In this document: positions 6,602-59,956 of the stretch, piece after piece
Layout of the letters: each line of letters starts with the position of its first letter
How positions within the stretch are numbered: the stretch's first letter is position 1
From: Aliiglaciecola sp. LCG003
Lineage (GTDB): Bacteria > Pseudomonadota > Gammaproteobacteria > Enterobacterales > Alteromonadaceae
DNA length: 64,000 bases
Assembly (NCBI RefSeq): GCF_030316135.1
Contig: NZ_CP128185.1
Location: 2,852,001-2,916,000, forward strand
Direction: 5' to 3'
The notes under the pieces: generated by a model
Database searches by the model: none
Told to the model about the DNA's origin: nothing
What the model saw: only the letters and a program-made list of their open reading frames with translations
Made by a program: the position numbers and the translations under genes

Positions 6602-8251
6602 CTAGATTAAAAAGGTGGCGGTAACTTGGCTACCATCGGGACTATATTCCAGATTATCGCAGAGTTCTTTGACTAATGGGATCCCTCGACCATAAGTAAA
6701 ATCATCATTGAAAATATGGGATTGATGAATGTCAAACCCATTCCCTGTATCGCTTACTTTAGCAATCAAGGTTTTACCATTGGGCTGAAATGAAACTGAA
6801 ATAGAAATAGAAATACTGCCATTTTTCAGTTCTGCCAGGCGTTGAAAACGCATTTCATAGAACTCAAAAAATCCATCGGTACTATTTTTTAAGTTTGAAT
6901 CTAGCTCCAATAAGCCATGATCAAGTGAATTGTTGAATAATTCTCCCAAAACAGTACTCAGGTCTGAACGGATCCCGTACATTCCCAATTGAGAGGCAAC
7001 CATAGCCACCAGATCATAAACCGGATCAAACTCTCTTAACTGATCAGGTAATAGCTCAACACTAACATTAAAAGGCAATTGAGTTACCAAATGGTCAGGC
7101 TTTAGCTTATCCAAATTCTGGCAGGTGTAACTGATGAAGGTAATATCATCTAGTTGCTCTGCCTTACCTCGGAAGCTTTCTATCTTGTGAATAATATCCT
7201 CAACCGTCATATCGGGCGTTTCGGACAACCAACCTAACACTACTTTTTCACCTAACATTTGTGAATCAATATTCATCAGTTCGATAACGCCATCCGAATA
7301 GCCTACAAGTCGTTCATCACTTTTGGCCTCATAATATTCGACATTATTCTCGAACTCGTGCTCTTCAAGGATCCCCAACGCCATGTGCTTAGAAGCAAGT
7401 GTTTTAGCTATTTCACCGTCAGCTTTAATCACCCATAAATCAGGCATGCCTCCATTCCAGATGGTAAAATGCTGTCCGGTATTTGATATTTCAACCAATG
7501 CGGCTGCAAAAAACATATCGCCAGGCAACAATGACAGCAAGGTTTTATTTAGCGCAGCTACCATGTCTGACACTGCCATACCTTTGCTCGCCATAGCTTG
7601 AAAGCTTCGAGCAACAGGTAAGGCACCAATAGAAGAGGCCAAACCGTGCCCCGTAAAGTCACCAACTAAAAAGAAAATTCCGCCGGATGGGCTTATTTCA
7701 GCCAGAAACAGGTCACCGTTAAAACGACTGGCTGGCGTCAGTCTGTAATCAAAAAAACAAGCTAATTTTTTGTCCAGCGCTAAGGCATTATTAAAAATAT
7801 GTTCAACAATATCATGTTCTCGTTGCACCCCATTACGAAAGTAATTGAGCTCTTGATTCTGTTCAAAGGCTCGTCGGCTGAGTAACCGAGTACGTTGGTG
7901 AGCACGAATTTTAGCGGTTAAAATAAGCTTATCAAACGGTTTGGCCGCAAAGTCATCACCACCAACCTCTAGACACTTAGCAAGAGCGGTTTGATCATCC
8001 AAGGCTGTAATAAAAATAATTGGCAGATATATTTCGTCAGACATACTTTTCAAGATAGGAGCGACCTGATAACCGTCCATATCTGGCATCATTACATCTA
8101 AAAGTACCAAATCAGGGTCAATCTGAGCCGCGAGTTCAATGGCCTGCTGCCCACTGCCAGCTTCATAGCAGTCAGGAAATCCAGCCTCTTCGAGCATGAA
8201 CCTAAGCAAAGAGCGATTTAATGACTCATCATCAACTATCAAAATCCGCAT
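6602..8251 (-). CDS. response regulator with PP2C phosphatase and anti-sigma-type kinase domains (HsbR/CrsR-like)
   Basis: A 549-residue three-domain protein. Residues 1-120 are a receiver with phospho-accepting D52. A SpoIIE/RsbU-type PP2C phosphatase follows (about 165-385, metal-binding VGDFTGHG and YSDGVIE). The C-terminus is a GHKL serine-kinase-like domain (about 415-549; ELFNNSLDHGL and VSDTGNGFD). The layout matches HsbR of Pseudomonas and CrsR of Shewanella, which switch between dephosphorylating and phosphorylating a STAS partner under control of the receiver. The probable partner is encoded 15 bases upstream. The downstream target (anti-sigma factor or diguanylate cyclase) is not visible here. 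Confidence 0.88.
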   Translation of the reverse strand: MRILIVDDESLNRSLLRFMLEEAGFPDCYEAGSGQQAIELAAQIDPDLVLLDVMMPDMDGYQVAPILKSMSDEIYLPIIFITALDDQTALAKCLEVGGDDFAAKPFDKLILTAKIRAHQRTRLLSRRAFEQNQELNYFRNGVQREHDIVEHIFNNALALDKKLACFFDYRLTPASRFNGDLFLAEISPSGGIFFLVGDFTGHGLASSIGALPVARSFQAMASKGMAVSDMVAALNKTLLSLLPGDMFFAAALVEISNTGQHFTIWNGGMPDLWVIKADGEIAKTLASKHMALGILEEHEFENNVEYYEAKSDERLVGYSDGVIELMNIDSQMLGEKVVLGWLSETPDMTVEDIIHKIESFRGKAEQLDDITFISYTCQNLDKLKPDHLVTQLPFNVSVELLPDQLREFDPVYDLVAMVASQLGMYGIRSDLSTVLGELFNNSLDHGLLELDSNLKNSTDGFFEFYEMRFQRLAELKNGSISISISVSFQPNGKTLIAKVSDTGNGFDIHQSHIFNDDFTYGRGIPLVKELCDNLEYSPDGSQVTATFLI

Positions 8252-8266
8252 GAGACCGTCTACTAT

Positions 8267-8572
8267 TTAACTTAATTGAAATTTTTTATCAAAGCGGGAG
8301 ATTTTTAATATTTTCGAAACTTGGGGACGAGAATTCACAATCCGAAAGGTCTTCACTTGGCTAACCATAGTTTTTTGCATGTTAAGTAACATACCAAGCG
8401 CAGAACTATCCATATATTCGGTCTGTTCTAGGTCGACTATGATTGTATGAATAGTACTAGGTGCTGATGTAAAGGCGATTCTAAATTCTTGTACTTTGCC
8501 GAAATCAAATTTCTCATCCATGTGGATAGTCAACGTTTTTTGGTCTTCCGATAGCTGAGACTCTACGCTCAT
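8267..8572 (-). CDS. STAS-domain anti-sigma factor antagonist (HsbA/CrsA-like)
   Basis: A 101-residue single STAS domain with a GGAG ribosome binding site. The segment TEYMDSSALGMLL carries Ser56/Ser57 at the place where SpoIIAA, RsbV and HsbA are phosphorylated. It is first in the unit and 15 bases ahead of the phosphatase/kinase gene, so it is the obvious substrate. In the unphosphorylated form such proteins sequester an anti-sigma partner (FlgM in the HsbA case). Confidence 0.88.
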   Translation of the reverse strand: MSVESQLSEDQKTLTIHMDEKFDFGKVQEFRIAFTSAPSTIHTIIVDLEQTEYMDSSALGMLLNMQKTMVSQVKTFRIVNSRPQVSKILKISRFDKKFQLS

Positions 8573-8780
8573 TTTTATCTCCTCAATTACTCAAACATGA
8601 ATTTCTTCCCAGATTTGCCTTGAACACAACCGACACAACAATTTTAAACCGTTAATCGAATAAATATAGGTGTTTTAAAATAATAAGTTAAATTAAGTCC
8701 GCTTGTTTGAATAATTGATGTTTATGTCCATCCAATATTTGTCTAAACTGAGCGTTATTCTATTCACAACTTAAAGTATT

Positions 8781-9104
8781 ATGTCTGAAAATAATCTTGT
8801 CTATAGTACCGACGGTGGTCGTATTGAAAGACAAAGCACTACGCCTGTTCAATCACTCTCTAAAGACGGAATTGTCAGGATCCGACGAGAAACCAAGGGT
8901 CGCAAGGGCAAAGGAGTGACCACAATTGAAGGCCTCGGATTATCGCCAGAACCACTCAAAACCCTGTGCACAGAGCTTAAAAAGCACTGTGGGACGGGCG
9001 GAGCGATCAAGCAAGGTATTATCGAAATTCAAGGGGATAATCGAGATAAAATCAAATCGATTCTCGAAAAAAAAGGCATGACCGTAAAACTTGTCGGTGG
9101 CTAG
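8781..9104 (+). CDS. yciH: SUI1/YciH-family translation initiation factor
   Basis: A 107-residue protein with a disordered N-terminus (about 1-30) and a full SUI1/eIF1-like domain: the basic RRETKGRKGKGVTTIEGL, then CGTGGAIKQGIIEIQGD and the C-terminal helix. Bacterial YciH resembles eIF1 and has been proposed to proof-read start codon selection. It faces the STAS unit divergently and sits 32 bases ahead of a double-receiver regulator, with which it may be cotranscribed. Confidence 0.93.
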   Translation: MSENNLVYSTDGGRIERQSTTPVQSLSKDGIVRIRRETKGRKGKGVTTIEGLGLSPEPLKTLCTELKKHCGTGGAIKQGIIEIQGDNRDKIKSILEKKGMTVKLVGG

Positions 9105-9136
9105 CCAATCCTCTCGTCAAATAACAGGAATCCATT

Positions 9137-9937
9137 ATGGAAAATATCTCATTATCTGAAGTCAATATCTTATTGATTGAGCCCTCAGATACTCAACGTA
9201 AAATCATTACCTCACTACTGATTAAAGAAAATGTCGGTGAGATAGATTCTGTCTCGACGATAGCAGAAGCTAAAAGTGCTTTGAAAGCCCATGGCAGTGA
9301 CGTGGTAGTGAGTTCTATGTATTTCGAAGACGGTACAGGTTTAGATTTGCTAAAGCATATAAAGGGTAATGATGAAACGGCCTCAATTCCGTTTATGCTA
9401 GTAAGCAGTGAAAACCGCGTGGCTAAATTAGATGAATTTAAACAAGCAGGCGTAGCAGCAATATTACCAAAACCTTTTAAACCTGTGCATTTATCACGAG
9501 CATTGAAGGCTACGTTAGAGTTGATCAACACTTCTGAACTAGAACTGGATTTATTTGATGTTGAAGAAGTACGAGTTTTATTGGTTGACGACAGTAGATT
9601 AGCTAGAAACCACATTCGCCGTGTACTAGAAGGCATGGGGTTGAAAAAAATCCAAGAAGCTGAAAATGGTGCAATGGCCCTAACCTACATTAAAGACAAT
9701 ACCTATGACTTAGTTGTAACAGACTACAATATGCCTGAAATGGATGGACGTGAACTTTCAGAATTTATTCGTTTTAATCCGCAGACATCACATATTCCTA
9801 TCATAATGGTAACATCAGAAGCTGCTGACAGCGCGCATATGGCTAACATCCAGCAAACTGGAGTAAACGCGCTATGTGACAAGCCTTTTGAGGCAGATGA
9901 AGTGCGCAGAATGTTAGTCACCTTACTCAGCGACTAA
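9137..9937 (+). CDS. response regulator with two receiver domains, the first lacking its phospho-accepting Asp
   Basis: A 266-residue protein made only of two CheY-like receivers (about 8-128 and 145-264). The second has the acidic pair D151/D152, phospho-acceptor D196 (VVTDYNMPEMDG), the Thr/Ser site and the switch Lys. In the first, the Asp position is Ser (VVVSSMYFEDG, S60) and one acidic residue is lost, so it is likely an unphosphorylatable pseudo-receiver, although its Lys (LPKPF) remains. No output domain is present, so it should signal by protein-protein contact, as CheY-like proteins do. The repeat array begins 21 bases after its stop. Confidence 0.88.
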   Translation: MENISLSEVNILLIEPSDTQRKIITSLLIKENVGEIDSVSTIAEAKSALKAHGSDVVVSSMYFEDGTGLDLLKHIKGNDETASIPFMLVSSENRVAKLDEFKQAGVAAILPKPFKPVHLSRALKATLELINTSELELDLFDVEEVRVLLVDDSRLARNHIRRVLEGMGLKKIQEAENGAMALTYIKDNTYDLVVTDYNMPEMDGRELSEFIRFNPQTSHIPIIMVTSEAADSAHMANIQQTGVNALCDKPFEADEVRRMLVTLLSD

Positions 9938-9958
9938 TTCGCTGAATAGTCTATCGTT

Positions 9959-10556
9959 ATCTGACAGCGGAACACCACCGCTGTCCCCCCTTTCCTTTCA
10001 AATTCAGACTTCCAATCACTTTCGACTTCTCAGCATATAAATCAAACACTGGTTAAATCGCGGTCAAAAACCATGTTTCTGATGAAAGCATTTACGATGG
10101 CTGTCCATGTAATGTTTAATGAAAGCATTTACGATGGCTGTCCATGTAATGATGATCTGACAGCGGAACACCACCGCTGTCTCCCTTTCCTTTCAAATTC
10201 AGACTTCCAATCACTTTCGACTTCTCAGCATAAAAATCAAACACTGGTTAAATCGCGGTCAAAAACCATGTTTCTGATGGAAGCATTTACGATGGCTGTC
10301 CATGCAATGATGATGGGTGTCCATGCAATGATGATGTATTTACGATGGCTGTCCATGTAATGGCGATCTGACAGCGGAACACCACCGCTGTCCCCCTTTC
10401 CTTTCAAATTCAGACTTCCAATCACTTTCGACTTCTCAGCATAAAAATCAAACACTGGTTAAATCGCGGTCAAAAACCATGTTTCTGATGGAAGCATTTA
10501 CGATGGCTGTCCATGTAATGTTTACGATGGCTGTCCATGTAATGGTCCATGTAATG
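9959..10556 (+). repeat. hierarchical tandem repeat array (three ~155-bp units plus a 24-bp minisatellite)
   Basis: A unit beginning ATCTGACAGCGG starts at 9959, 10155 and 10366, and the three copies are nearly identical over about 155 bp. Each unit ends in a 24-bp motif beginning TTTACGATGGC and ending CCATGTAATG. Full copies lie at 10091-10114, 10128-10151, 10286-10309, 10339-10362, 10497-10520 and 10521-10544, with partial ones at 10312-10330 and 10545-10556. Each large unit starts with an 8-bp hairpin (GACAGCGG/CCGCTGTC). Open frames across the array are by-products of the repetition. No mobile gene lies inside the array; the IS element begins 14 bp after it. Confidence 0.9.
9963..9985 (+). 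terminator. hairpin after the double-receiver gene, repeated in the array
   Basis: GACAGCGG and CCGCTGTC form a perfect 8-bp stem around a 7-base loop, followed by a C/T-rich tract (CCCCCTTTCCTTT). It could end transcription of the regulator gene, although the tract is not a clean run of T. The same hairpin recurs at about 10159 and 10370. Confidence 0.4.
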
Positions 10557-28765: not shown

Positions 28766-29521
28766 TTATATGGGTGTGCCGCTATGGAACTTAAAATCAT
28801 CGTCAGCTTTTGCTATTAGCTCTGCCTCTTTCTCAGCAAAGAAATTAACTCGCTGGTCGATACTTTGTCCACTTACCGTTTGCGCGAGGGTTAAATAATC
28901 CTGGAAATGGCGAGCTTCAGAACGAAGCAATGACACATAGAACGACTCTAACTCTGGGTCTAAATAAGGTGCAAGTTTGGCAAAACGTTCGCAAGAGCGG
29001 GCTTCGATGTATGCACCACAAATAAGCGTATCGGTTAGCTTTGCTGGTTCATGGGTGCGCACATGACGCATCATGCCGCGAGCATAACGACCGGCTTTGA
29101 TGTTTTGATATTCGATTCCGCGACTGTGGAGGATCTCGAGCACTTGCTGAAAATGATGTAATTCTTCTTTGATCAACATTACCATTTTAGCAATCAATTC
29201 ATCACCATGAGAAAAATCTGATTTACTGATCAATTTTTTAGATAAGCTAACATGTTGACTAAAGTCACCGCTGCCTATTTGGCGATAAACATAATCTTCA
29301 AACGGTTTAAGCCAAGCCAGCAAAGCGTCACCGCTTTCCTTGTCGACCGCATAACGCCGTAATAACAGCATGGCGGTTTGAGCGGCTTTCAGCTCACAAT
29401 TCGCATGATCGACTAACAGTGTTGACAAGTTTTCAGGCTTGATAGCCTCGTCAATCCAGCTTTGTGGGGTTGAGCATTGCAGAAAACTGTTTATCGGAGA
29501 AAGTAGCTCTGAAATATTCAA
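28766..29521 (-). CDS. miaE: tRNA-(2-methylthio-N6-isopentenyladenosine37) hydroxylase
   Basis: A 251-residue ferritin-like di-iron enzyme. The iron ligands are in LLVDHANCELKAA (first Glu-x-x-His half), MLIKEELHHFQQVLEI (EExxH), and the second pair AYIEARSCERF and RSEARHFQDY. It hydroxylates the isopentenyl group of ms2i6A at tRNA position 37 using O2. The only start is TTG 29521 behind AGGA. The downstream end is intact; decayed pieces homologous to its 5' end lie at 30164 and 32555. Confidence 0.93.
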   Translation of the reverse strand: MNISELLSPINSFLQCSTPQSWIDEAIKPENLSTLLVDHANCELKAAQTAMLLLRRYAVDKESGDALLAWLKPFEDYVYRQIGSGDFSQHVSLSKKLISKSDFSHGDELIAKMVMLIKEELHHFQQVLEILHSRGIEYQNIKAGRYARGMMRHVRTHEPAKLTDTLICGAYIEARSCERFAKLAPYLDPELESFYVSLLRSEARHFQDYLTLAQTVSGQSIDQRVNFFAEKEAELIAKADDDFKFHSGTPI

Positions 29522-30163: not shown

Positions 30164-30307
30164 CTATGCTTTTAACTCTCAATTAGCATGATCGACTAAC
30201 AGTGTTGACACGTTTTCAGGCTTGATAGACTCGTCAATCCAGCTCTGTGGGGTTGGGCAGTTAAGACCTATGTTAATCGGTTTCAGTAAGTCTTTGGTAC
30301 TCGTTGT
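30164..30307 (-). pseudogene. decayed 5' fragment of a miaE-like gene
   Basis: Read on the minus strand, this stretch gives CPTPQSWIDESIKPEN and VSTLLVDHAN, then a stop in place of the conserved Cys, ELKA and a second stop. The intact miaE reads CSTPQSWIDEAIKPEN, LSTLLVDHAN, CELKAA. The similarity covers the first 45-50 codons and then ceases. With the intact gene at 28766-29521, the fragment brackets the parDE module. Confidence 0.85.
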
Positions 30308-48740: not shown

Positions 48741-49241
48741 TTAATAAGCACCTGCTGCATAAGTTAATTCGTAGCTATGGCTGTATATTTCCAAAATATT
48801 ACCGAATGGGTCTTCCATATAGATCATTCGGTAAGGCTTTTCTCCAGGATAATAATAACGTGGCGCCTTCATACGTTTTTTGCCCCCTGCGGCAACTATC
48901 TTTTCGGCCAACTCTTCAACATTAGGATCTTGCACGCAAAAGTGAAACACGCCTGTTTTCCAGTATTCGAAATTGTCTTCAGGGTTTTGCTGATTTTTGA
49001 ATTCAAACAGTTCGACCCCTACTCTATCCCCAGTGGACAGGTGAGCGATCCTGAAATGCTCCCAGCCTGCACCAAACACATCAGTGCACATTTCACCTAT
49101 TGGTGAGTCATCTTCGCTTATTTCAGTTGGCTGCATAATAAGATACCAACCTAACACTTCAGTATAAAACTTAACTGCCGCATCCAAATCAGGTACAGAT
49201 ATACCAATATGGGAAAAGGTTCTTGGATATACATTGCTCAT
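48741..49241 (-). CDS. VOC-superfamily (glyoxalase/extradiol dioxygenase-like) protein
   Basis: A 166-residue two-module VOC protein. Ligand candidates are His in FSHIGISVPDLDAAVKFY (about 11), Glu in GVELFEF (about 77), His in GVFHFCVQD (about 95) and Glu in FGNILEIYSH (about 152), giving a full metal site. The C-terminal region YYPGEKPYRMIYMEDPFGNILE is typical of VOC enzymes in catabolic clusters. Lyase, dioxygenase or dehalogenase activity cannot be distinguished. It is divergent from a LysR regulator that probably controls it. Confidence 0.82.
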   Translation of the reverse strand: MSNVYPRTFSHIGISVPDLDAAVKFYTEVLGWYLIMQPTEISEDDSPIGEMCTDVFGAGWEHFRIAHLSTGDRVGVELFEFKNQQNPEDNFEYWKTGVFHFCVQDPNVEELAEKIVAAGGKKRMKAPRYYYPGEKPYRMIYMEDPFGNILEIYSHSYELTYAAGAY

Positions 49242-49334
49242 TTTATCGCCCTCTTTGTAAAGTAGTAAAAAGTATAGTCCCTATGTTAAAGTACATAAAA
49301 TTATCAATTATTATTATTTTGAGTATTTTTTATA

Positions 49335-50249
49335 ATGATTAACCCAACCTGGTTAAACACCTTTTGCACGCTTGTGGATGTTGGACATTTTACCCAAACG
49401 GCGACAAAGCTATTTATGACTCAATCGGGTGTGAGCCAACATATTAAAAAGTTGGAGAACCAACTCGCAAGCCAATTACTAATTAGACAGGGGAAATCAT
49501 TCTCACTCACAAGCGCTGGTCAGCAATTATATACCAAAGGGCGAGAACTGCTGCATTCAGCCGCAGAGTTAGAGGCATCAATTAAACAAGATGACGCATA
49601 CAGTGGCAGAGTAAAAATTGCCTCGCCGGGGAGTATTGGCTTAAATCTTTATCCACGTTTACTTACCTTGCAATTAACGCATCCTGCACTTTCTATCGAT
49701 TATCGTTTTGCACCCAATAAAAGCATTGAACAGGACTTAAACAGCAGAGAATTAGATTTGGGTTTGATAACCGAGTTAACTGATAGCAGTAGCCTTGTTA
49801 GCCAGAAGATAGGAGAAGAACCGCTCGTTCTAGTCACATCAAACAAAGTTAATTCAATTGACTGGGGTGCATTAGTTAAAATCGGATTTATCTCCCACCC
49901 TGACGCAGCACATCATGGCAGACTGTTATTGAGTAAAAACTTTGGTCAATTTGAGCATATAGAACAATTTCCATATCGGGGTTTCTCAAACCAAATCAGC
50001 TTGATCCTGGAGCCTGTCAGTATGGGATTGGGGTTTACTGTACTTCCGTTACATGCAGCACAAGCCTTTAAACCGCAAAAAACAATCAACATACATAGAC
50101 TAGAGAAGGCTATCAGTGAAAACCTGTATTTGTGCTTCAACAGACACGCTATTTTGGCAAACCGAGTGAAATTCATTAGATCAATGATCATCGACTATTT
50201 AGCTCAACCACTCTTGCCTTCAAACAAATTAGATGGCGATGACAACTAA
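49335..50249 (+). CDS. LysR-family transcriptional regulator
   Basis: A 304-residue LysR protein: winged helix at the N-terminus (TFCTLVDVGHFTQTATKLFMTQSGVSQHIKKLE, about 10-42) and a periplasmic-binding-like effector domain (about 90-295). It faces the VOC gene with a 93-base AT-rich divergent promoter region, the usual LysR arrangement. The effector is unknown. Confidence 0.9.
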   Translation: MINPTWLNTFCTLVDVGHFTQTATKLFMTQSGVSQHIKKLENQLASQLLIRQGKSFSLTSAGQQLYTKGRELLHSAAELEASIKQDDAYSGRVKIASPGSIGLNLYPRLLTLQLTHPALSIDYRFAPNKSIEQDLNSRELDLGLITELTDSSSLVSQKIGEEPLVLVTSNKVNSIDWGALVKIGFISHPDAAHHGRLLLSKNFGQFEHIEQFPYRGFSNQISLILEPVSMGLGFTVLPLHAAQAFKPQKTINIHRLEKAISENLYLCFNRHAILANRVKFIRSMIIDYLAQPLLPSNKLDGDDN

Positions 50250-50320: not shown

Positions 50321-51148
50321 TTATACTGTTAGCACAAATTTTGCTAATTCATTATTAAAACGATTGGGGGAACTTAGGAAAGGTATATGCCCATCATTTT
50401 TATACCAAGATGTAGATGCTTTAGGTAGGTGAACTTCTAATAGCTCGGCTAAGAGCGGCAGTGAATATAAATCTTTCTTGCCATGCGTTAATAACACAGG
50501 TAAGTCTAGTTTTGCTAATACGTCTTCGTAGTCCATCCGTCTATTGCGCATAAAAATGCGCACATTCAGTGGTACCGCAGATAAATCGTTAAGCATCTGA
50601 TTTGCAATATAATCATCTGCCACATTTTGAGTTAGATCAGTTACAAACCGCTTTTCGGCATTTTCACGCACGGTTTGACTTTCGTCATAAAGCGCAGATA
50701 ACACTGCGTAACCCGGCCCCTTAACTGATTCTGTCGCTAATGTACCTGCTGCGATAAAATTGATTCCGCTAAGCATCGACTTCCCAAATACTTTTAAATA
50801 GTCATTCACGACCCGACCACCATAAGACCAAGCAACGATAAATACTTTACGTAGATTGAAATACTCAAAAATTGAAAAGAGATCTCCAGCCCATCGCTCA
50901 CCTTCAGTATAGAATTCAGCTACCTTTGGCTTTTCTGAATGTCCATGACCACGAAGATCGAATGCTATGAGATGAAAATGTTCATTTAACTTAGAATCGT
51001 TAAATTGTTGGTGCCAAATTTTATAACTAGAACAGGTTCCATGAACAAAAATTATCGGTGGTAAGTCGGTTTTACCATTGGAGATTACAGCAAGTTCAGT
51101 TCCATCTAAACTTGCGATACGTAATTCATGCAATTTCGTAACTCCCAT
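50321..51148 (-). CDS. alpha/beta hydrolase, possibly of ring-cleavage products
   Basis: A 275-residue hydrolase whose ATG overlaps the stop of the VOC gene upstream (TAATG), so the two are translationally coupled. IIFVHGTCSSYKIWHQQF is the oxyanion region, IVAWSYGGRV (Ser at about 105) the nucleophile elbow, LLTHGKKDLYS the Asp and NDGHIPFLSSP the His. The pairing of an extradiol-type VOC protein with such a hydrolase is the arrangement of meta-cleavage pathways, but hydrolysis of another ester or C-C bond is equally possible. Confidence 0.85.
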   Translation of the reverse strand: MGVTKLHELRIASLDGTELAVISNGKTDLPPIIFVHGTCSSYKIWHQQFNDSKLNEHFHLIAFDLRGHGHSEKPKVAEFYTEGERWAGDLFSIFEYFNLRKVFIVAWSYGGRVVNDYLKVFGKSMLSGINFIAAGTLATESVKGPGYAVLSALYDESQTVRENAEKRFVTDLTQNVADDYIANQMLNDLSAVPLNVRIFMRNRRMDYEDVLAKLDLPVLLTHGKKDLYSLPLLAELLEVHLPKASTSWYKNDGHIPFLSSPNRFNNELAKFVLTV

Positions 51149-51744
51149 TAAGTAGCATCGGGGTAGTGTTCTGCTCTCACTCGCATCCACTCCTGGGTGT
51201 CTTTTTTAACGTCACGAGCTTTATCGTGAAAATATCGCTCGGTATCATCGACGTTATGCGTGAACTCTACCACTAACCCGTTTGGATCATGGAAATAAAT
51301 AGAATTACAGTACTCATGATCGATATTCATGTACTCGATTCCAGCTGCATCAAGGTTTTTTCGATGTTCGTTTAATATATCTTCATCAGTAACTTCAAGT
51401 GCTATGTGATGAGTCCACACATCGGTCTTTTCAAAACCACAATTCAGATCCTGATACTTTTGCGGAAAATCAAAAAAAGCTAACCAACTTCCGTCACCAA
51501 GTTCAAAATACATATGTGCATATGGTGTTTCTTTTCCTGTTATAGGATCAACTGGCTCAATAATCGTACACACTAAAGGAATATGAAGAACATCTTCATA
51601 GAACTTCCTAGTTTCTTCAGCATTTTTGCATTTGAAAGCGTGATGATGCAGCGCATTGATAGACGTCGAACGTTGACGGTTAATCCGTTGTGACCGAAGT
51701 TTCTGAATTGGTGTATCAGATTTATCCCAATGTGCTAATGACAT
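51148..51744 (-). CDS. VOC-superfamily protein, extradiol dioxygenase-like
   Basis: A 198-residue protein; ATG 51744 is chosen because GGAG lies 6 bases upstream. Metal ligands are His in ALHHHAFKC (about 32-34), His in WTHHIALEV (about 107) and Glu in GLVVEFTHN (about 157): a 2-His-1-carboxylate pattern. The length exceeds a single glyoxalase. It is coupled to the alpha/beta hydrolase and lies 50 bases downstream of the TonB receptor gene on the same strand, so all three may form one transcript. Confidence 0.83.
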   Translation of the reverse strand: MSLAHWDKSDTPIQKLRSQRINRQRSTSINALHHHAFKCKNAEETRKFYEDVLHIPLVCTIIEPVDPITGKETPYAHMYFELGDGSWLAFFDFPQKYQDLNCGFEKTDVWTHHIALEVTDEDILNEHRKNLDAAGIEYMNIDHEYCNSIYFHDPNGLVVEFTHNVDDTERYFHDKARDVKKDTQEWMRVRAEHYPDAT

Positions 51745-51794
51745 AAATTTCTCCAAAAGTTGATTAATTAGCGTTTTAACTGAACTTATATATT

Positions 51795-54014
51795 CTACAT
51801 TTCAAAATTGTAAGTATAGGTTAGCCCATAAATTCTTGGGCGAGCACGATATATAAAGCCTCCAGGCGACCATTCAGCATTGTATTGTTTGTCAGTTAAG
51901 TTTTTAGCCCACAACGCCAGTGACCAGTTTTCTGCTTCGTAGGTCACCCTAGCATCCAATAGATTAATAGGATCACGAGTCGTTGATTCATAAATGTCAA
52001 AGTTCGTCTCACCTAGTCTTTGGTAATCTAGTCGCCAAACTAAACTCGATATTCCATCATTCAAATCCTGGGTATATTGTGCACCTAAATTTAGAGTCGT
52101 TTTTGAAACTGCGGGGGTCTGATTGCCAATCGCAGAAGGGTCTCCGTACTCTTTAATCTCACTATCAACGTAACCAAAACCTGCTACCAATCGTAATCCG
52201 GGAAGAGGCGTTGCGTTAATATCAAATTCAAACCCCTGTAAACGTGCTTCAGGTATAACACCAATATTTTGTGTTGAATTTTGCTGTAAGAAAACGAAGA
52301 AAGGTGTGTTTTCGCTTTCGGTCGAATATAATGCGAAACCACCTCTTACGTTCATATCGGGTAGGGTAAACTTGCCTCCAACCTCAAAAGTTTTCGCTGT
52401 CTCTGCATCGTAAAACTCTTTTATACCGAAAATTCCTGCACTACCCGCTATAGCATCTGATCCCGTTTGATTAAATCCACCAGACCTAAAGCCTACACTG
52501 TAGCCGCCATAAGCGGTAAATTCATCAACGGGCTTATAGGTGAAAGTTAGTTTGGGTTGCCATTGACCAAAATCCCGCTTTTTAACTTCACCTTCAACGC
52601 CCACTTCAAATCCGGGCACATTGGGGATGAATGCCTGAGGCGTTTGCGTCAAGTTTTCCCGTTCATCTTTATCGTAACGTAGTGATGTATCAACCGACCA
52701 CTGTTCATTAAATTCGTATGATGCATTAGCGAAAAACGCCCAAGCAAAATTGTTTCGTACATCAGATAAAAAGTTTAACTGTGGATTGGCTGGGTCTAAA
52801 CTAATCCAGTCAAGAGGTGCGGAAAAACCAACACCAGTATCTATGCGAGCCCCATTTTGTTGCAACTGCTCGGTGTCAACTACATAAGCACCATAGATGT
52901 ATTTAAATTTTTCATCATCTGAAGAGGTATAGCGAATTTCTTGGCTCCATGATTTAGATCCAAAATTGGAAATTTGACTTTGATCAAAACCAGCCAAATT
53001 AAATAGAAAAGATTCTTCAATAGGTAAGTAGTCAAACGCATCTCCCGCTATTAACTCTTTGCTACGGTCATAAGCGGTTATTGAAGTCCAGAATCCACCA
53101 TCTTCCTCTGTATAGGTTATTTTCACCGAGCCTCCATATAAGTCCCGGTCGTTAATTCCAGCATTGTTGGTTCTAGGAGATAGTATTGTATTTACGTCAG
53201 AAGCGATTCGGTAGTTAAATGGTTGAGTTTCCAATGCACTGTAGTAACCTCTGAAATCAACTTCAAGTTTATCATTCACATACCAAACAACTTTCCCTCG
53301 AAGTGAAATATCTCTCAGTGGGTCAGAATCTTCGCCCAAATAAGTGTTTTCTATGTAACCATCCGTATCATAAAATGATCCCGATAAACGATAAGCCCAG
53401 TTTTCTCCACCCGGTCCGCTCACCCCTACTTGCGCCCTGAAGCCAGGTCCATTATCCACACCAAGTTTAATTCGCCCCTCTGCATACTCGGCTGGATCCT
53501 TGGTTGATATTACAATAGCACCACCAATTGCATTTCTGCCGTAGAGCCCTCCTTGCGGACCTTTTAGCACTTCGATTTGTTCTATATCAAACAACTCCTG
53601 CTGAAATTGCCCCGCATCAGTTTGCTGTACACCATCTATTATCACGGCGACTGATGGTTGTGTATCTCTGTTCTGAGAAATCCCTCTAATAGTAATAAAC
53701 GCCATGCCTGCATTTTGTGTTTCTATTAAGGTTACATTTGGCGTTAGACTGATAAAATCCGCTGGACGCTCAATCCCTGCTCCCTGAATATCAAAATCTG
53801 TAAACGCAGTTACCGCCACAGGCGCATCCTGAAGGCTTTGGGTTCGCCTCGTACCTTTCACCATAATGACTTCGACATCACTAGTTTGATCAGCCTGCTC
53901 ACCAATATCTTGCTGCTCTTGTGCGAAAGCTGTTGTGGTACCGAACAAACCAATAGCAACCAAAGTGCTTAGTAAAGTTTTATTTGAAATATACTCAAAT
54001 GCGGATTCAGGCAT
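51795..54014 (-). CDS. TonB-dependent outer membrane receptor
   Basis: A 739-residue receptor behind AGGAG. Signal peptide (about 1-32, ending AFAQ), plug domain (about 50-165: VEVIMVKGTRRTQSLQDAPVAVTAF, IEVLKGPQGGLYGRNAIGGAIVI), then a 22-strand barrel ending in the family-typical aromatic stretch (YGLTYTYNFEM). The plug and NSTQNIGVIPEARLQGFEFDI segments resemble receptors of Alteromonadales and sphingomonads for organic compounds, not siderophore receptors specifically. An IclR-type operator lies 89 bases upstream. It should import the substrate of the island. Confidence 0.92.
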   Translation of the reverse strand: MPESAFEYISNKTLLSTLVAIGLFGTTTAFAQEQQDIGEQADQTSDVEVIMVKGTRRTQSLQDAPVAVTAFTDFDIQGAGIERPADFISLTPNVTLIETQNAGMAFITIRGISQNRDTQPSVAVIIDGVQQTDAGQFQQELFDIEQIEVLKGPQGGLYGRNAIGGAIVISTKDPAEYAEGRIKLGVDNGPGFRAQVGVSGPGGENWAYRLSGSFYDTDGYIENTYLGEDSDPLRDISLRGKVVWYVNDKLEVDFRGYYSALETQPFNYRIASDVNTILSPRTNNAGINDRDLYGGSVKITYTEEDGGFWTSITAYDRSKELIAGDAFDYLPIEESFLFNLAGFDQSQISNFGSKSWSQEIRYTSSDDEKFKYIYGAYVVDTEQLQQNGARIDTGVGFSAPLDWISLDPANPQLNFLSDVRNNFAWAFFANASYEFNEQWSVDTSLRYDKDERENLTQTPQAFIPNVPGFEVGVEGEVKKRDFGQWQPKLTFTYKPVDEFTAYGGYSVGFRSGGFNQTGSDAIAGSAGIFGIKEFYDAETAKTFEVGGKFTLPDMNVRGGFALYSTESENTPFFVFLQQNSTQNIGVIPEARLQGFEFDINATPLPGLRLVAGFGYVDSEIKEYGDPSAIGNQTPAVSKTTLNLGAQYTQDLNDGISSLVWRLDYQRLGETNFDIYESTTRDPINLLDARVTYEAENWSLALWAKNLTDKQYNAEWSPGGFIYRARPRIYGLTYTYNFEM

Positions 54015-54102
54015 GATTTTCTCCTAGCGAGTGACCTGGATTAGTAGTTAAAAAAGCACACAAAACGTTACTTTTTTTTAACCTTTCCTTTACATTACTA
54101 TC

Positions 54103-54134
54103 TTCGATTAGCGAATACAAGTTCGTTAATCGAA
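54103..54134. promoter_or_regulatory. 32-bp inverted repeat, probable IclR operator at the receptor promoter
   Basis: TTCGATTAGCGAA, 6 bases (TACAAG), then TTCGTTAATCGAA: the half-sites match as inverted repeats at 12 of 13 positions. An almost identical site lies at 56311-56342. It is 89 bases upstream of the TonB receptor and about 80 bases beyond the end of the iclR gene. Confidence 0.8.
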
Positions 54135-54170
54135 TTTTATTCATTATTTATATAGCGGTTTGGAGAAGAT

Positions 54171-54198
54171 AAAAAAAAAGCACTCAATGAGTGCTTTA
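54171..54198 (-). terminator. terminator of the iclR gene
   Basis: On the minus strand AGCACTC pairs with GAGTGCT and is followed by nine T. It ends the iclR transcript 18 bases after its stop. Confidence 0.88.
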
Positions 54199-54215
54199 GA
54201 TGATGTATACCGAAC

Positions 54216-55013
54216 TTAATTTTTTAACAATGAATGTAACAATATTGGCCATTTGCTGAGGGCATACTGGATGTCCTTAGCTGCCACTTTAAGCAATGGA
54301 AGACGCGTTCTGACAAGTTCATCTTGCGCGATTCTTGATGCGCCAGTAGAACAATTTATTGCAGCCAAGACATTACCGTTGTCATCGAAAACCGGAACAG
54401 CTACTGAAACCAGGCCATAATCTAATTCATTCAAGACTGAACAATAACCTTTCTTTTTTATGTCAATAAGCTGCTGTTTGAGTGTGTCTTTTGACGTAAC
54501 AGTAAGATCTGTAAAGCGCTTCAATTCAGCACGCTCAAAATATTCGACAGCTCTGGTTTCCGTCATGTAAGCAAGTAACACTTTTCCCATTGATGTTGCG
54601 TGGGCGGGAAATCGAGTGCCCACTCCAGCATTCAATCTTATATGTCGATTTGTTGGAATATGGGCTAAATACAATATGTCTTCGCCAGATAGGACTGAAA
54701 TTGAAGAGCTATCTCCAGTTTCATCCCGAACTCTTTGCAAATGCTCACCTACAACTGAGTCAATACTGGCAGAAGCTAAAAATGCGGAACCAAAAACCAA
54801 TACTTCAGGCGTTAAAAGAAACTTTTTCCCCACCTTTACAACATAACCGAGTTCAACAAAGGTATTTAAGCACCTTCTAGCTACCGCCGGACTCAAATTT
54901 GTAGCAGCCGCCACCTCGCTAAGTTGCATTTCGGGTTGAGACTTATTGAATGAGCGCAGCACAGTCAAGCCTCGTTCTAGTGTTGTTAAGTATTCAGGGT
55001 TTTTCTCTTTCAA
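54216..55013 (-). CDS. IclR-family transcriptional regulator
   Basis: A 265-residue IclR protein: N-terminal winged helix (about 10-70: LERGLTVLRSFNKSQPEMQLSEVAAATNLSPAVARRCLNTFVELGYV) and effector domain (about 85-260: GTRFPAHATSMGKVLLAYM, LDYGLVSVAVPVFDDNGNVLAAINCSTG). IclR regulators of aromatic catabolism (PcaR, PobR, CatR types) have this layout. The start appears to be TTG 55013. It lies 82 bases after the CoA-transferase gene on the same strand, and two operator-like repeats flank the pair. Confidence 0.92.
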   Translation of the reverse strand: MKEKNPEYLTTLERGLTVLRSFNKSQPEMQLSEVAAATNLSPAVARRCLNTFVELGYVVKVGKKFLLTPEVLVFGSAFLASASIDSVVGEHLQRVRDETGDSSSISVLSGEDILYLAHIPTNRHIRLNAGVGTRFPAHATSMGKVLLAYMTETRAVEYFERAELKRFTDLTVTSKDTLKQQLIDIKKKGYCSVLNELDYGLVSVAVPVFDDNGNVLAAINCSTGASRIAQDELVRTRLPLLKVAAKDIQYALSKWPILLHSLLKN

Positions 55014-55095
55014 AATATTGTATTAACCTTTCCAATCATTAATGCACAGCACTATAGCAAAATTGAATTGCAAGGCAATTTATTCAATATTCAAA

Positions 55096-56220
55096 TTAGC
55101 CATTAAACTCCTGGCCATTGTGTTCCCCTAGTACCGGAGGGGCTAAAACGTCTAGATTCGCCTCGCCATTAAAGCGTAAGGGCGATCTAACGGTTTTAAA
55201 AATACCCTTCTGTGGGTGCTCAGTTTGCACACATAGATTCATATGGATTGCTTGTGGTGTTTCCAGCGCTTCCTTGGAATTTAGGACAAGTGAATGAGGT
55301 ACTTCAATTTCTACCAGCCTCTCACACCAATATGACGACGGTTTTGCAAGAAATAATGGCTTGAGAAACTCAACCACTTTATCATAGTTCTCTATACGAG
55401 ACTCTCTACTTGCGAACTCAGACCGACTTAACATATTTGGATGGCCCACAGCCTCTGCTAGACCCGTCCAAAATTTTGTTGGTGATGACATGTGTAAGGC
55501 GATCCAACGTTTATCTTTACATTCAAACACGTAGGATTGGGATACATTAGGTCTACTTTCTGGTCCCATGATTAAATCTGCGGAAAGGTAATGGGTAAAG
55601 TCATCCAAATTAAAGTGGCTCATTGCTTCCAACATCGAAATCTCGACTAAGCAGCTTTCATTTGACTTTTGCCGCGCAAACAATGCTGCCAAAATCCCTT
55701 GTGATGCATAAAAGCCTGTGATTGCGTCAGCAATGGCAGGACCAACAACCCGAGGGTTGGCAGGATTGAGTAATAAACGAAGAAATCCAGTTGCGGCTTG
55801 AGCTACAGTATCAAAAGCAGGTTTCAATGCGTCAGGTCCATCAGGACCAAACCCTGAAATTGAGCAGTAAACTAATTTGGGATTTATTTGTTTTAAGCGT
55901 TCATAGTCAACTCTGAGTTTCTTGGCGACGCCGGGGCGAAAATTTTCGATAAATACATCAGCTTGTCTAATTAGCTTATCGAATTCTTCAAGATCTGAGT
56001 CAGACTTTGTGTTGAGTTCAACACTACGTTTATTGCGGTTATAGGTTTGAAAATGAGGGCTATACAACTCGCCGTTAAAAGCTCTGAAGGGGTCCCCAAT
56101 TTCCGGCCTTTCAACTTTAATTACATCCGCACCAAGGTCTGCTAAAAACATACCAGCGGCAGGCCCAGTGATGAACGTTCCCATTTCAACGACATTTACA
56201 TCCGATAGCATTTTAAACAT
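55096..56220 (-). CDS. family III (CaiB/BaiF) acyl-CoA transferase
   Basis: A 374-residue CoA-transferase behind GAGGA. N-terminal VEMGTFITGPAAGMFLADLGADVIKVE and FIENFRPGVAKKLRVDYE, and the catalytic Asp in GPAIADAITGFYAS (D165), are all present. It transfers CoA from a donor such as succinyl-CoA to a carboxylic acid. The likely acceptor is the di- or tricarboxylate that the divergently encoded lyase later cleaves. Expressed from the operator-bearing region at 56221-56419. Confidence 0.9.
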   Translation of the reverse strand: MFKMLSDVNVVEMGTFITGPAAGMFLADLGADVIKVERPEIGDPFRAFNGELYSPHFQTYNRNKRSVELNTKSDSDLEEFDKLIRQADVFIENFRPGVAKKLRVDYERLKQINPKLVYCSISGFGPDGPDALKPAFDTVAQAATGFLRLLLNPANPRVVGPAIADAITGFYASQGILAALFARQKSNESCLVEISMLEAMSHFNLDDFTHYLSADLIMGPESRPNVSQSYVFECKDKRWIALHMSSPTKFWTGLAEAVGHPNMLSRSEFASRESRIENYDKVVEFLKPLFLAKPSSYWCERLVEIEVPHSLVLNSKEALETPQAIHMNLCVQTEHPQKGIFKTVRSPLRFNGEANLDVLAPPVLGEHNGQEFNG

Positions 56221-56310
56221 GTTTGAGTCCTCAGTGTTATGTTATTCATTAAATAATCTTATTACTTGAAGAGACTACTCCCTTTACTTACTACGGATAA
56301 TGATATATCT

Positions 56311-56342
56311 TTCGATTATCGAAAACAAGTTCGTTAGTCGAA
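56311..56342. promoter_or_regulatory. 32-bp inverted repeat, probable IclR operator between CoA-transferase and lyase genes
   Basis: TTCGATTATCGAA, 6 bases (AACAAG), then TTCGTTAGTCGAA: 11 of 13 inverted matches, and 29 of 32 bases identical to the site at 54103. It lies 91 bases upstream of the CoA-transferase start and 77 bases before the lyase start, able to control both divergent promoters. Confidence 0.82.
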
Positions 56343-56419: not shown

Positions 56420-57208
56420 ATGAGAATTGGAAAGCAAGATAATGCATATACTAGCATTTGTACTTCTACTGCCGAAAATATTACAGTCCGTGGTTATGAT
56501 CTTTGTGACGATATAATTGGGGAAATAGATTTCACCGCATATTTTTGGCTATTAGTTTGTGGAAAGTTACCTGATGAAAATCAAAAATATTTTGCTAATG
56601 TGGTGCTAGCTTCAATAGCTGAACACGGCCTTGTGCCCAGTGTAGTGGCAGCTAGGATGACATTAGCAGCGGCGCCAGAGGCTTTTCAAGGCGCAGTTTC
56701 CGCCGGACTCAATGGCTGCGGCTCAGTAGTGCTTGGTAGCGCAGAAGTTACTGGTCGTTTTCTATCCGAAATTGTTAATGAGGCTCAAACAGATGACCTC
56801 GAAAAGGTTGTACACAAAGCGCTGCTTCAATTAAAGGAGCAGAGCCGTAGAGCTCCAGGGTTTGGTCATCCACTCCACTCTTCTGGGGATCCCCGGGCAA
56901 ACCTTATCCTCAAACTTGCCAAGGAAAAACAGGTAGAAGGCCCTTACATTGAGGCACTTTATGAGATTCATAAGCTTATCCCTAGTGTGTTTGGAAAATC
57001 ACTACCTATAAATGTCAATGGTGCGATTCCTGCAGTTATGCTCGACGTCGGTTTTCCCCTGAGCGCATTGAAAGGTATCTCTTTGCTTGCCAGAACCGCG
57101 AGCTTAGTGGCTCATTTGGAAGAAGAAAATCGTAATCCGATTGGGTTTATCTTATCAGGCAAAGCCGCTGAACATATTCAATACAATGGACAATTAAAGA
57201 AACCCTAA
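56420..57208 (+). CDS. citryl-CoA lyase-like enzyme (citrate synthase fold)
   Basis: A 262-residue protein, far shorter than citrate synthase but the size of citryl-CoA lyases and of the C-terminal domain of ATP-citrate lyase. It has family motifs [16 protein letters not shown] (His at about 150), [16 protein letters not shown] (about 198-213, with the catalytic acidic residue) and [14 protein letters not shown] (about 223-236). It should cleave a citryl-CoA-like or citramalyl-CoA-like thioester to acetyl-CoA and a 2-oxo acid. It heads a probable operon with wrbA and the leuCD-like genes. Confidence 0.85.
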
Positions 57209-57228: not shown

Positions 57229-57834
57229 GTGAAAACACTAATTTTATATTATTCAACTTATGGACACATTGAGGCTATGGCCCAGGCAATAGCAGAAGGA
57301 GCTCGCTCAGTACCCGGCTCCGAAGTAATAATAAAAAGAGTGCCTGAGTTAATGCCGGAGGCAGTAGCAAAATCGTCAGGTGCCAAGCTTGATCAAGCAG
57401 CTCCAATTGCCAGCGTAGATGAACTTCCCGAATACGACGCAATTATTATCGGCACTCCTACTCGATATGGAAGAATGGCAGCTCAAATGGCTAACTTTCT
57501 AGATCAAACGGGCGGTTTATGGTTTCAGAATGCTTTAGTCGGAAAAGTTGGTAGTGTATTTACCTCTACAGCAAGCCAACATGGCGGTCAAGAAACGACT
57601 CTGATCTCAACTATAGTTAATCTGCTCCACTTGGGAATGACTATTGTCGGTGCACCATATACAGAAAAAAGACTAACTCAAATAGATGAAGTAATGGGAG
57701 GCACTCCTTATGGTTCATCCACTATAGCAGGTGGCGACGGGAGCAGGATGCCTTCTGAAAATGACCTTGAAATTGCCAAAAGTCATGGCCGCCATGTTGC
57801 GTCAGTTACCATGTCAATTGTAAAAGGTCGCTAG
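57229..57834 (+). CDS. wrbA: NAD(P)H:quinone oxidoreductase, WrbA family
   Basis: A 201-residue flavodoxin-like protein starting at GTG 57229 behind CTGGAG. It has the FMN phosphate loop [13 protein letters not shown] (about 6-18), [13 protein letters not shown] (about 78-90) and [14 protein letters not shown] (about 111-124). It performs two-electron reduction of quinones. In a catabolic island it probably detoxifies or reduces a benzoquinone intermediate, as PnpB-type enzymes do. It lies 20 bases after the lyase gene. Confidence 0.93.
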
Positions 57835-57947: not shown

Positions 57948-59363
57948 ATGAATTCAGCAAAAACAATGTATGAAAAAATATGGGACACACACATTGTTGC
58001 ATCCCACAATGCAGAAGCAATACTCTACATAGACCTACACTTAATTCATGAAGTTACTTCACCGCAAGCATTCGAAGGTCTTAGAGATAAAGGCAGATCC
58101 ATTCGAAGGCCTAACTTAACGATTGCAACTATGGATCATAGCATTCCAACTACATCAGCTTCGCTGGAAGATTGCTCACCTGAGAATAAAGCTCAACTAA
58201 CAATGCTAGAGTACAATTGCCAACAGGCAGACGTAACACTATTCCCATTAGGCCACCCTAAACAGGGCATAGTGCATGTAATTGCTCCAGAGCAAGGATT
58301 AATCCTTCCGGGAATGACTGTCGTTTGTGGAGATTCCCACACATCTACTCATGGTGCTTTTGGTGCGCTAGCCTTTGGCATTGGTACCTCTCAAGTTGAA
58401 CATGTTTTGGCCACCCAAAGCATTCGACTTTTAAAGTCCAAAACTTTGAAGATTACATACACTGGTAAAAGAGGAACCTTTATTTCTGCTAAAGACGTGA
58501 TTCTTTATACTTTGGGTATAATTGGTAACAATGGCGCTACCGGATATGTCATTGAGTACTCAGGAGAAATAATTGAACAAATGAGCATGGAAGAACGTTT
58601 GACTATGTGTAACATGTCCATAGAAGCTGGTGCCAAAAGTAGCCTCATCGCGCCGGACTGCAAGACCTTTGCTTACATCAGAAAGGCACTTCCGTTAATA
58701 TCAGATCGTGACTGGGAGCAAAAAATAGCACAATGGTCTTTACTAAAAAGTGACAGCAACGCTGTGTTTGATAGGCACATCAGCATTGATATCAGTGGGG
58801 TCACTCCACAAGTTACTTGGGGCACCAACCCTTCGCAAGTTATTGGGGTTGATGGGTACGTACCGGATCCTTCGGTAAATCAAACTAATGAGAAAATAAA
58901 AGAAGCCAAAGACGCGTTAAACTATATGAATCTTAGTATTGATTCAAAACTAGACCGAACAACCGTCGACCATGTGTTTATTGGTTCATGCACAAACAGT
59001 CGTATCGAAGACTTAAGAGAAGCAGCTAAGATTGCAAGCCTTGGCAAAGTCGTTTCTTCTGTAAAGGCTATTGTTGTACCAGGATCCGTAGCTGTCCGGG
59101 AACAAGCAGAAAAGGAAGGATTAAAGGAGATTTTCGAATCTGCCGGTTTCCAATGGCGCCACCCCGGATGCTCCATGTGTCTAGGTATGAATGATGATGC
59201 CCTGAAGCCGGGAAATCGCTGTGCATCGACAAGCAATAGAAATTTCGAAGGCAGGCAAGGCAGAGGAGCAAGAACACATTTGATGAGCCCCGCAATGGCA
59301 GCTGCAGCAGCAATTACGGGAAAGATTACTGATGTCAGACTACTGGTAGAGGAGAATACTTAA
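57948..59363 (+). CDS. leuC: LeuC-type hydro-lyase large subunit (isopropylmalate dehydratase family)
   Basis: A 471-residue aconitase-superfamily protein colinear with E. coli LeuC over its whole length. The [4Fe-4S] cysteines are in VFIGSCTNSRIEDL and PGCSMCLGMNDD. ASTSNRNFEGRQGRGARTHL binds substrate carboxylates. In leucine biosynthesis it isomerises isopropylmalate, but here leuA and leuB are absent and CoA-transferase and lyase genes are adjacent. A paralogue acting on citramalate, citraconate or another branched acid is plausible. Its last base overlaps the start of the small-subunit gene. Confidence 0.93.
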   Translation: MNSAKTMYEKIWDTHIVASHNAEAILYIDLHLIHEVTSPQAFEGLRDKGRSIRRPNLTIATMDHSIPTTSASLEDCSPENKAQLTMLEYNCQQADVTLFPLGHPKQGIVHVIAPEQGLILPGMTVVCGDSHTSTHGAFGALAFGIGTSQVEHVLATQSIRLLKSKTLKITYTGKRGTFISAKDVILYTLGIIGNNGATGYVIEYSGEIIEQMSMEERLTMCNMSIEAGAKSSLIAPDCKTFAYIRKALPLISDRDWEQKIAQWSLLKSDSNAVFDRHISIDISGVTPQVTWGTNPSQVIGVDGYVPDPSVNQTNEKIKEAKDALNYMNLSIDSKLDRTTVDHVFIGSCTNSRIEDLREAAKIASLGKVVSSVKAIVVPGSVAVREQAEKEGLKEIFESAGFQWRHPGCSMCLGMNDDALKPGNRCASTSNRNFEGRQGRGARTHLMSPAMAAAAAITGKITDVRLLVEENT

Positions 59364-59956
59364 TGGCCTATTTCAATATAGAAAGTACAGCCATTCCCTT
59401 AGATTCATCGAATATCGATACTGACCAAATAATTCCAAAGCAATTTATGTCTAGTACTAGCCGCAGTGGTTACGGAAAAAACTTATTTTTCAATAATCGT
59501 TATATCGATGGCGACTACTCAAAGCCTAACAGCAACTTCATACTTAATTCACCATTTCTTAAAGAGTCACAAATTTTGCTTAGTCGAGAAAATTTCGGCT
59601 GTGGTTCGAGCAGAGAGCATGCACAATGGGCGCTCAGAGGTTTCGGTATAAGAGCAATCATTGCCGTTAGTTTCGCTGATATTTTCTATCAAAACTGTAT
59701 TTATAACCAAATTCTGCCGATTTCATTAAACGCGAGTGACATAGATGTACTTATTCAATACTACAAATCCTATTGTGGAAATGTTTTCGTAAGCTTGCAA
59801 GAACAGTCGGTCAAACTTCCCGTTGGAAATTACGTTCAATTTCAGATATCACCAGAAGATAAAGATATTTTATTAAATAATCTAGATTCAATTTCAATAA
59901 CAGAAAAATACCAAACAGATATATGCCGATTCGAGAAATTAAAACCGGTAGGATAA
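59363..59956 (+). CDS. leuD: LeuD-type hydro-lyase small subunit
   Basis: A 197-residue swivelling-domain subunit with the motifs IDTDQIIPKQFM, ENFGCGSSREHAQWALRGFG and SFADIFYQNCIYNQILPI. The region that in LeuD determines substrate fit (SRSGYGKNLFF, about 32-42) resembles isopropylmalate enzymes. Starts on the last base of the leuC stop (TAATG), so the two are coupled. AT-richer in codon use than the ribosomal genes of the window. Confidence 0.92.
   Translation: MAYFNIESTAIPLDSSNIDTDQIIPKQFMSSTSRSGYGKNLFFNNRYIDGDYSKPNSNFILNSPFLKESQILLSRENFGCGSSREHAQWALRGFGIRAIIAVSFADIFYQNCIYNQILPISLNASDIDVLIQYYKSYCGNVFVSLQEQSVKLPVGNYVQFQISPEDKDILLNNLDSISITEKYQTDICRFEKLKPVG

Follow-up and report, generated by a model that had tools for sequence, protein, structure and literature searches.

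Two tandem palindromic sites, very likely bound by the adjacent IclR-type regulator, in a catabolic gene cluster of Aliiglaciecola sp. LCG003

Genes of the cluster and form of the two sites

The catabolic cluster analyzed here lies in a stretch of 64,000 nucleotides of Aliiglaciecola sp. LCG003 (contig NZ_CP128185.1, positions 2,852,001 to 2,916,000), referred to below as the window. The genes and the two sites under study are the following, with the basis of each assignment in parentheses.

50321-51190, minus strand: alpha/beta hydrolase, downstream of the VOC gene (ORF, Pfam)
51148-51756, minus strand: VOC (glyoxalase/dioxygenase superfamily) protein, downstream of the receptor (ORF, Pfam)
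51795-54014, minus strand: TonB-dependent receptor (ORF, Pfam)
54103-54134, no strand: putative tandem operator at the receptor promoter, with palindromes 54103-54115 and 54122-54134, spacer 54116-54121 and centers 19 bp apart
54177-54197, minus strand: intrinsic-terminator-like hairpin after iclR
54216-55013, minus strand: iclR, IclR-family regulator (Pfam, NCBIfam, PDB and genome profile searches)
55096-56220, minus strand: family III CoA-transferase, first gene of the CoA-transferase-iclR unit (ORF, Pfam, NCBIfam)
56311-56342, no strand: putative tandem operator in the CoA-transferase/lyase gap, with palindromes 56311-56323 and 56330-56342 and spacer 56324-56329
56420-57208, plus strand: citryl-CoA-lyase-like protein, divergent from the CoA-transferase (Pfam Citrate_synt)
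57229-57834, plus strand: WrbA-like flavodoxin/FMN reductase (Pfam, cluster comparison)
57948-59363, plus strand: leuC-like dehydratase large subunit, optional member (Pfam, NCBIfam)
59363-59956, plus strand: leuD-like dehydratase small subunit, optional member (NCBIfam)

The regulator belongs to the IclR family, with matches to PF09339 HTH_IclR (53.4 bits, cut-off 22) and PF01614 IclR_C (141.6 bits, cut-off 24), and is the sole IclR_C match in a profile search of the genome. Its best NCBIfam model is TIGR02431 (PcaR/PcaU/PobR), where its score of 262.3 bits falls below the cut-off of 284.75 and leaves it outside that subfamily; in the PDB the protein matches 2ia2 and 8eju (Pca-regulon regulator) best. 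The nearest characterized relatives also include PDB 5hpf, which is named as a transcriptional activator and is presumably PobR. The iclR gene follows directly downstream of the CoA-transferase gene on the minus strand, 82 bp away, a point absent from an earlier reading made from the sequence alone (the sequence-only reading). The two genes probably form one unit starting at the 56311-56342 site, which probably puts iclR under its own control; a general scan found a promoter-like pair at 55078-55051 that could give iclR a separate start. The hairpin at 54177-54197 separates the iclR and receptor units and has similar counterparts with T runs 3' of iclR at two related loci (L022 and L023), in a terminator scan that as a whole found 10 structures versus 8.7 in shuffled sequences. 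The lyase scored 301.6 bits against the citryl-CoA lyase subfamily model NF004868 (cut-off 193). Adjoining the cluster is a divergent gene pair, a TIGR03645 "glyox_marine" VOC protein at 48741-49241 (345.7 bits, cut-off 262.05) and a LysR regulator at 49335-50249; no TTCGN5CGAA arm was found at this pair (48741-50249).

As the sequence-only reading had it, the segments at 54103-54134 and 56311-56342 agree at 29 of 32 bases, with three differing positions, and lie at the receptor promoter and in the gap between the divergent CoA-transferase and lyase genes, with iclR encoded between them. A repeat search of the window returned both as one direct-repeat family (D2, 34 nt, 91%). Both fit the pattern TTCGN5CGAA-N6-TTCGN5CGAA without a mismatch at its 16 fixed bases. 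Being palindromic, this pattern yields each site on both strands. Each site had been described as one inverted repeat of 13-bp arms over a 6-base spacer. The outer arms do pair over the spacer (12 of 13 positions at the first site and 11 of 13 at the second), but each 13-bp arm is a palindrome in itself, of the PcaR/IclR group-1 type, which that description had missed, and two tandem palindromes describe the sites better.

This form has close counterparts in the IclR family. According to the main-text parts of Suvorova and Gelfand (2021; PMC8222616), PcaR and PcaU sites share the arm core (WWWRKTCGATWATCGSAYRRW; TTTGTTCGATWATCGMACAMA), the group-1 subgroup has the motif WTTYCRYW3RYGRAAW, which the arm fits, and tandem IclR sites spaced 18 to 22 nt from center to center, predicted in 94 orthologous groups, are interpreted as tetramer sites. 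The sites described here resemble both, having the PcaR and PcaU core in the arm TTCGATTATCGAA and 19 nt between the centers of group-1 palindromes. The main-text parts of that study do not name this cluster, which may already be among its orthologous groups. To judge from its form, the 32-mer is best taken for a pair of tandem operators, an arrangement that would suit an IclR tetramer. TtgV (PDB 2xrn and 2xro, as cited in the same parts of PMC8222616) likewise is an IclR-family protein complexed with its operator DNA as a tetramer, although its similarity to the present regulator is distant (48.7 bits) and its targets are RND efflux pumps. The sites differ from those of PcaU and PobR, described in the sources as one palindrome with an extra half-site, in having two full palindromes 19 bp apart, and from those of PcaR, PcaU and PobR in having A/T rather than GT/AC flanks. 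The targets differ too: in place of beta-ketoadipate genes there are a TonB receptor and a citryl-CoA-lyase-like route. The regulator also scores below the TIGR02431 cut-off that defines those proteins.

Conservation and rarity of the sites

Eight clusters, the window and seven others found by protein similarity and none by the motif, were compared. Those of G010 and G023 were found by the lyase (with matches in 3 of 98 relatives, the own genome among them), that of a Sphingopyxis metagenome-assembled genome by IclR, and that on a Niveispirillum cyanobacteriorum plasmid by the lyase and IclR. Three more (G907, G1003 and G1087) were found by an IclR profile, whose 5 matches among 398 genomes also include the own genome and G010. 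The tandem site is present in the CoA-transferase/lyase gap of all eight clusters and at the receptor promoter of all seven that have a receptor beside iclR, the window included in both counts. Comparison of the same intergenic regions in relatives, a check that the sequence-only reading had proposed, thus found a site at 15 of 15 places, and the operator is kept together with the regulator at the same genes. No site has more than one mismatch in the 16 fixed bases; taken together, the sites agree with the group-1 form (TTCG-N5-CGAA, A/T flanks) at 237 of 240 such bases, and positions -1 and -2 of the arms are A or T except for one G. The 19-nt spacing of the 15 aligned sites lies within the 18 to 22 nt of tandem IclR sites; it was built into the search pattern, and its independent test is a search of the own genome with free spacing, given below.

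The pattern had been recorded on the first five clusters before G907, G1003 and G1087 were fetched. These yielded five sites, all exact, at the five existing places; there is no sixth place because iclR of G1003 lacks a neighboring receptor gene, the stretch containing only a weak match (31%) elsewhere, as was noticed post hoc. The plasmid sample comprised 20 of the 87 records with a lyase match and 6 of the 14 records with a related IclR protein, namely Niveispirillum and five distant ones that are outside the eight-cluster counts. Distant rhizobial clusters whose IclR proteins are 39 to 40% identical have a tandem site with at most two mismatches in four of four cases (one mismatch in Agrobacterium and Neorhizobium, two in Martelella and Rhizobium), placed before the lyase, iclR or an oxidoreductase-lyase unit. 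No tandem site, even with three mismatches allowed, is present at a Cupriavidus locus whose related IclR protein is 42% identical. In Agrobacterium deltaense (L026), an IS66-type insertion element (6996-9451) lies between iclR and the citryl-CoA lyase gene, which keeps a tandem site with one mismatch 19 bp before its start.

The sites are rare as well as conserved. In the genome of 4,411,932 bases, the tandem pattern with up to two mismatches occurs at these two sites only, both with none; a reversed-pattern control at the same tolerance occurs at two places per strand, so the weight rests on the exactness of both genomic sites. With free spacing of 0 to 30 between palindromes, the genome still contains only these two pairs, both at 19, and the control none. 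Among 369 genomes drawn from the class, only the own genome contains the exact pattern (two sites), and two genomes contain the control. A slightly wider pattern matches 2 of 394 genomes of the order, the own and G010, which also has the gene cluster, while its control matches 10 of 394, six of them in one genus. The many scattered genomic copies that the sequence-only reading had named as evidence against a regulon were therefore not found in the genome-wide search. A genome search with the single arm (TTCGNTNANCGAA) returned 15 places versus 11 for its control, no signal beyond the tandem sites.

The same reading had held that two such matches were very unlikely by chance. This applies to the palindromic form, which is unique in the window, and not to a 29/32 pair as such: no 32-mer pair at 29/32 occurred in 20 first-order Markov random sequences modeled on the window, but the real window contains other such pairs in two regions, at about 9.9 to 10.5 kb and 29 to 30 kb. 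The first is an imperfect direct-repeat array at 9950-10520 with a period of about 200 bp, in which the 22-mer GCATTTACGATGGCTGTCCATG occurs five times (four exact, one with one mismatch) and many 32-mer pairs reach at least 29/32. The second holds two direct 126-nt copies (29385-29510 and 30168-30293), which are 83% identical and 783 bp apart.

The surrounding genes vary more than the sites do. A VOC homologue (35 to 76% identity) is present in all eight clusters, whereas hydrolase homologues were found in this comparison only in L022 and L023. The wrbA gene follows the lyase in the window, G023 and G010 and the receptor in Sphingopyxis, Niveispirillum, G1087 and G907, and was not found in the G1003 stretch. 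The VOC gene follows the receptor, directly or after wrbA, in seven clusters and iclR in G1003. Every wrbA or VOC location is thus behind an operator copy, which supports a single regulon whatever the gene order. The sequence-only reading had proposed one IclR regulon of receptor, CoA-transferase and lyase-leuCD operon, and the presence of sites at 15 of 15 places, their operator type and the lone IclR_C match all argue for it. The regulon should also include iclR, wrbA (57229-57834), the VOC gene (51148-51756) and the hydrolase gene (50321-51190). The lyase-leuCD operon stands as a local form: leuC and leuD occur in only two of the eight clusters (the window and G010) and so are not core members, absence of leuCD or of a receptor meaning absence from the 16.8- to 18.8-kb stretches in which gene presence was judged, and no lyase promoter stands out in the window.

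Predicted promoters inside the operator and the probable mode of control

In the receptor/CoA-transferase direction, the aligned sites share a TTG in the spacer (positions 15 to 17) and a T at position 20, the first base of the second arm, in 15 of 15 cases, giving TTGNNT; the sequence-only reading had not noted this -35-like hexamer. The TA of a -10 element follows at positions 38 and 39 in 14 of 15, a 17-nt spacing, and an A stands at position 51, where the start would fall, in 12 of 15. The alignment therefore places a sigma-70 promoter (TTGACA-like, 17 nt, TATAAT-like) at a fixed place in the operator. The mean TATAAT match is equal at spacings of 15 and 17 (3.6 of 6), and the leading TA distinguishes them (14 of 15 at 17, 6 of 15 at 15). 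The predicted elements in the window are the following.

54115-54120, minus strand: predicted -35 element TTGTAT of the receptor promoter, in the operator spacer (alignment of 15 sites)
54092-54097, minus strand: predicted -10 element TAATGT of the receptor promoter, at 17-nt spacing, with a predicted start near 54084
56323-56328, minus strand: predicted -35 element TTGTTT of the CoA-transferase-iclR promoter (alignment)
56300-56305, minus strand: predicted -10 element TATCAT of the CoA-transferase-iclR promoter, with a predicted start near 56292

A general promoter scan of the window listed neither promoter (12 pairs versus 25.9 in shuffles), and the -35 hexamers TTGTAT and TTGTTT match at only 3 of 6 positions, so the promoter assignment rests on the alignment. 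On that basis the operator straddles the predicted promoters of the receptor and of CoA-transferase-iclR, with palindrome centers at about -44 and -25 relative to the predicted start. Toward the lyase, the window shows no conspicuous promoter, its best score being reached by 99% of shuffles. Three clusters (L021, L038 and L039) have TTGACA/T at -18 or -19 before the site and a -10 element inside an arm, with scores equaled by shuffles in 0.5%, 6% and 9.5%, respectively, and the lyase start is 13 to 21 bp from the operator; such a promoter was not seen in the other five of the eight clusters. Operator control of the lyase is plausible in these three, and we infer that it extends to the window.

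The nearby IclR-type regulator very likely binds at the two sites. These probably serve as tandem operators of the protein encoded between them, in a circuit of ligand-relieved repression with autoregulation. Each 13-bp arm (TTCGN5CGAA) would be one dimer site, and the 19 bp between arm centers would allow a tetramer to sit on a single face of the DNA. The -35 element, placed in the 6-bp spacer, would have one dimer site immediately 5' of it and the other filling the gap to the -10 element. Bound there, the protein would deny RNA polymerase access to the receptor-VOC-hydrolase and CoA-transferase-iclR promoters and would limit its own synthesis. The inducer, probably either the imported compound itself or an intermediate formed from it by ring cleavage or linked to CoA, would release the protein, and the uptake and breakdown genes would be switched on together. 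A comparable link is described for PheR of Sphingobium (PMC13273656), an IclR-family repressor through which the breakdown of aromatics is coupled to TonB-linked uptake; the PheR footprint of 44 bp at +23 to -21, with the core GCAACG, differs from the sites described here, and its TonB effect is known from transcriptomes rather than from a conserved operator.

The main rival is that the same protein acts from the same operators as an activator or dual regulator in the manner of PcaR, PcaU and PobR and, with its inducer, aids polymerase at weak hexamers. PcaR is said, in the title of Guo and Houghton 1999, both to activate and to repress while bound over -35 and -10, a position like that of the present sites. 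The nearest characterized relatives thus include activators as well as this dual regulator, so position alone does not settle repression. The best NCBIfam match of the regulator and the 3/6 matches of the -35 hexamers in the window also fit activation. At least four relatives, however, have a -35 element TTGACT with 17 nt to the -10 element, where less help should be needed, and the second dimer site would occupy the gap between -35 and -10, a usual position for repressors. Activation or dual control accordingly seems unlikely, if by no means negligible.

It is improbable that the 32-mer is one long palindrome bound by one dimer, as the earlier wording implied. The outer pairing in the window is what such a site would have, but it drops to 8 or 9 of 13 in 3 of 10 sites (both sites of L021 and the receptor site of L022). 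Each arm is complete and carries the core of known IclR-group sites, and Martelella and Rhizobium keep one arm intact with the other degenerate. The Niveispirillum receptor promoter (L024, 9871-9921) contains three palindromes in 19-bp steps, the third with one mismatch, which speaks against a single palindrome. The variable arm bases do not separate the two symmetries, being complementary at 20 of 40 positions for tandem dimers and 26 of 50 for the whole site, with 39% expected from composition.

Binding by another regulator, for example the LysR protein encoded nearby at 49335-50249, is very improbable, given that the sites have the IclR-group form of the cited sources, iclR accompanies them in eight of eight clusters and the genome contains no second IclR_C match. 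An action of the inverted repeats as RNA hairpins or terminators, prompted by a terminator scan that lists 54103-54134 on the plus strand as terminator-like, is scarcely credible and was rejected, because only the 26 of 50 variable positions pair in ten sites (somewhat above expectation, far from full), no plus-strand ORF of at least 100 aa lies between 50249 and 56420, no T run follows the 56311-56342 site, and a site that precedes the predicted start is hardly transcribed.

Function and distribution of the cluster

Neighboring genes in other genomes bear on the substrate of the cluster. The Niveispirillum cluster directly adjoins genes (L024, 596-6685) for a LigK aldolase, which scored 405.8 bits (cut-off 304.5), and for a class III extradiol dioxygenase subunit, at 544.9 bits against a cut-off of 317. 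The Martelella cluster has genes annotated as an amidohydrolase and an extradiol ring-cleavage dioxygenase next to it. These neighbors point to aromatic ring-cleavage products as substrates, and the cluster probably takes up and breaks down an aromatic compound. A literature search by title and abstract opening returned nothing on this cluster or its lyase route.

The lyase is patchily distributed: it occurs in the 3 of 98 relatives already mentioned and in none of eight other genomes of the same genus. The GC content of the region is not anomalous (41%, compared with 38 to 45% elsewhere in the window). Since G907, G1003 and G1087 belong to the same phylum and not to the same class, the cluster is present in at least two classes. 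It can be suggested, tentatively, that the cluster is a self-contained cassette moving between classes, with a fixed promoter-operator module (at least two palindromes in 19-bp steps, with the -35 element in the spacer) before each unit. Genes would shift between units within the regulon, the number of palindromes (three in Niveispirillum) might tune repression, and the route might combine a CoA-transferase with a citryl-CoA-lyase-like enzyme that cleaves ring-opened aromatic products.

The regulon is well supported and useful, and it is not surprising, as this type of regulation is already known. With one IclR_C match and two operators in the genome, the whole circuit is small. The analysis gives a firm, testable regulon for a patchily spread catabolic cluster, and the conserved operator is a handle for finding further members and the inducer.
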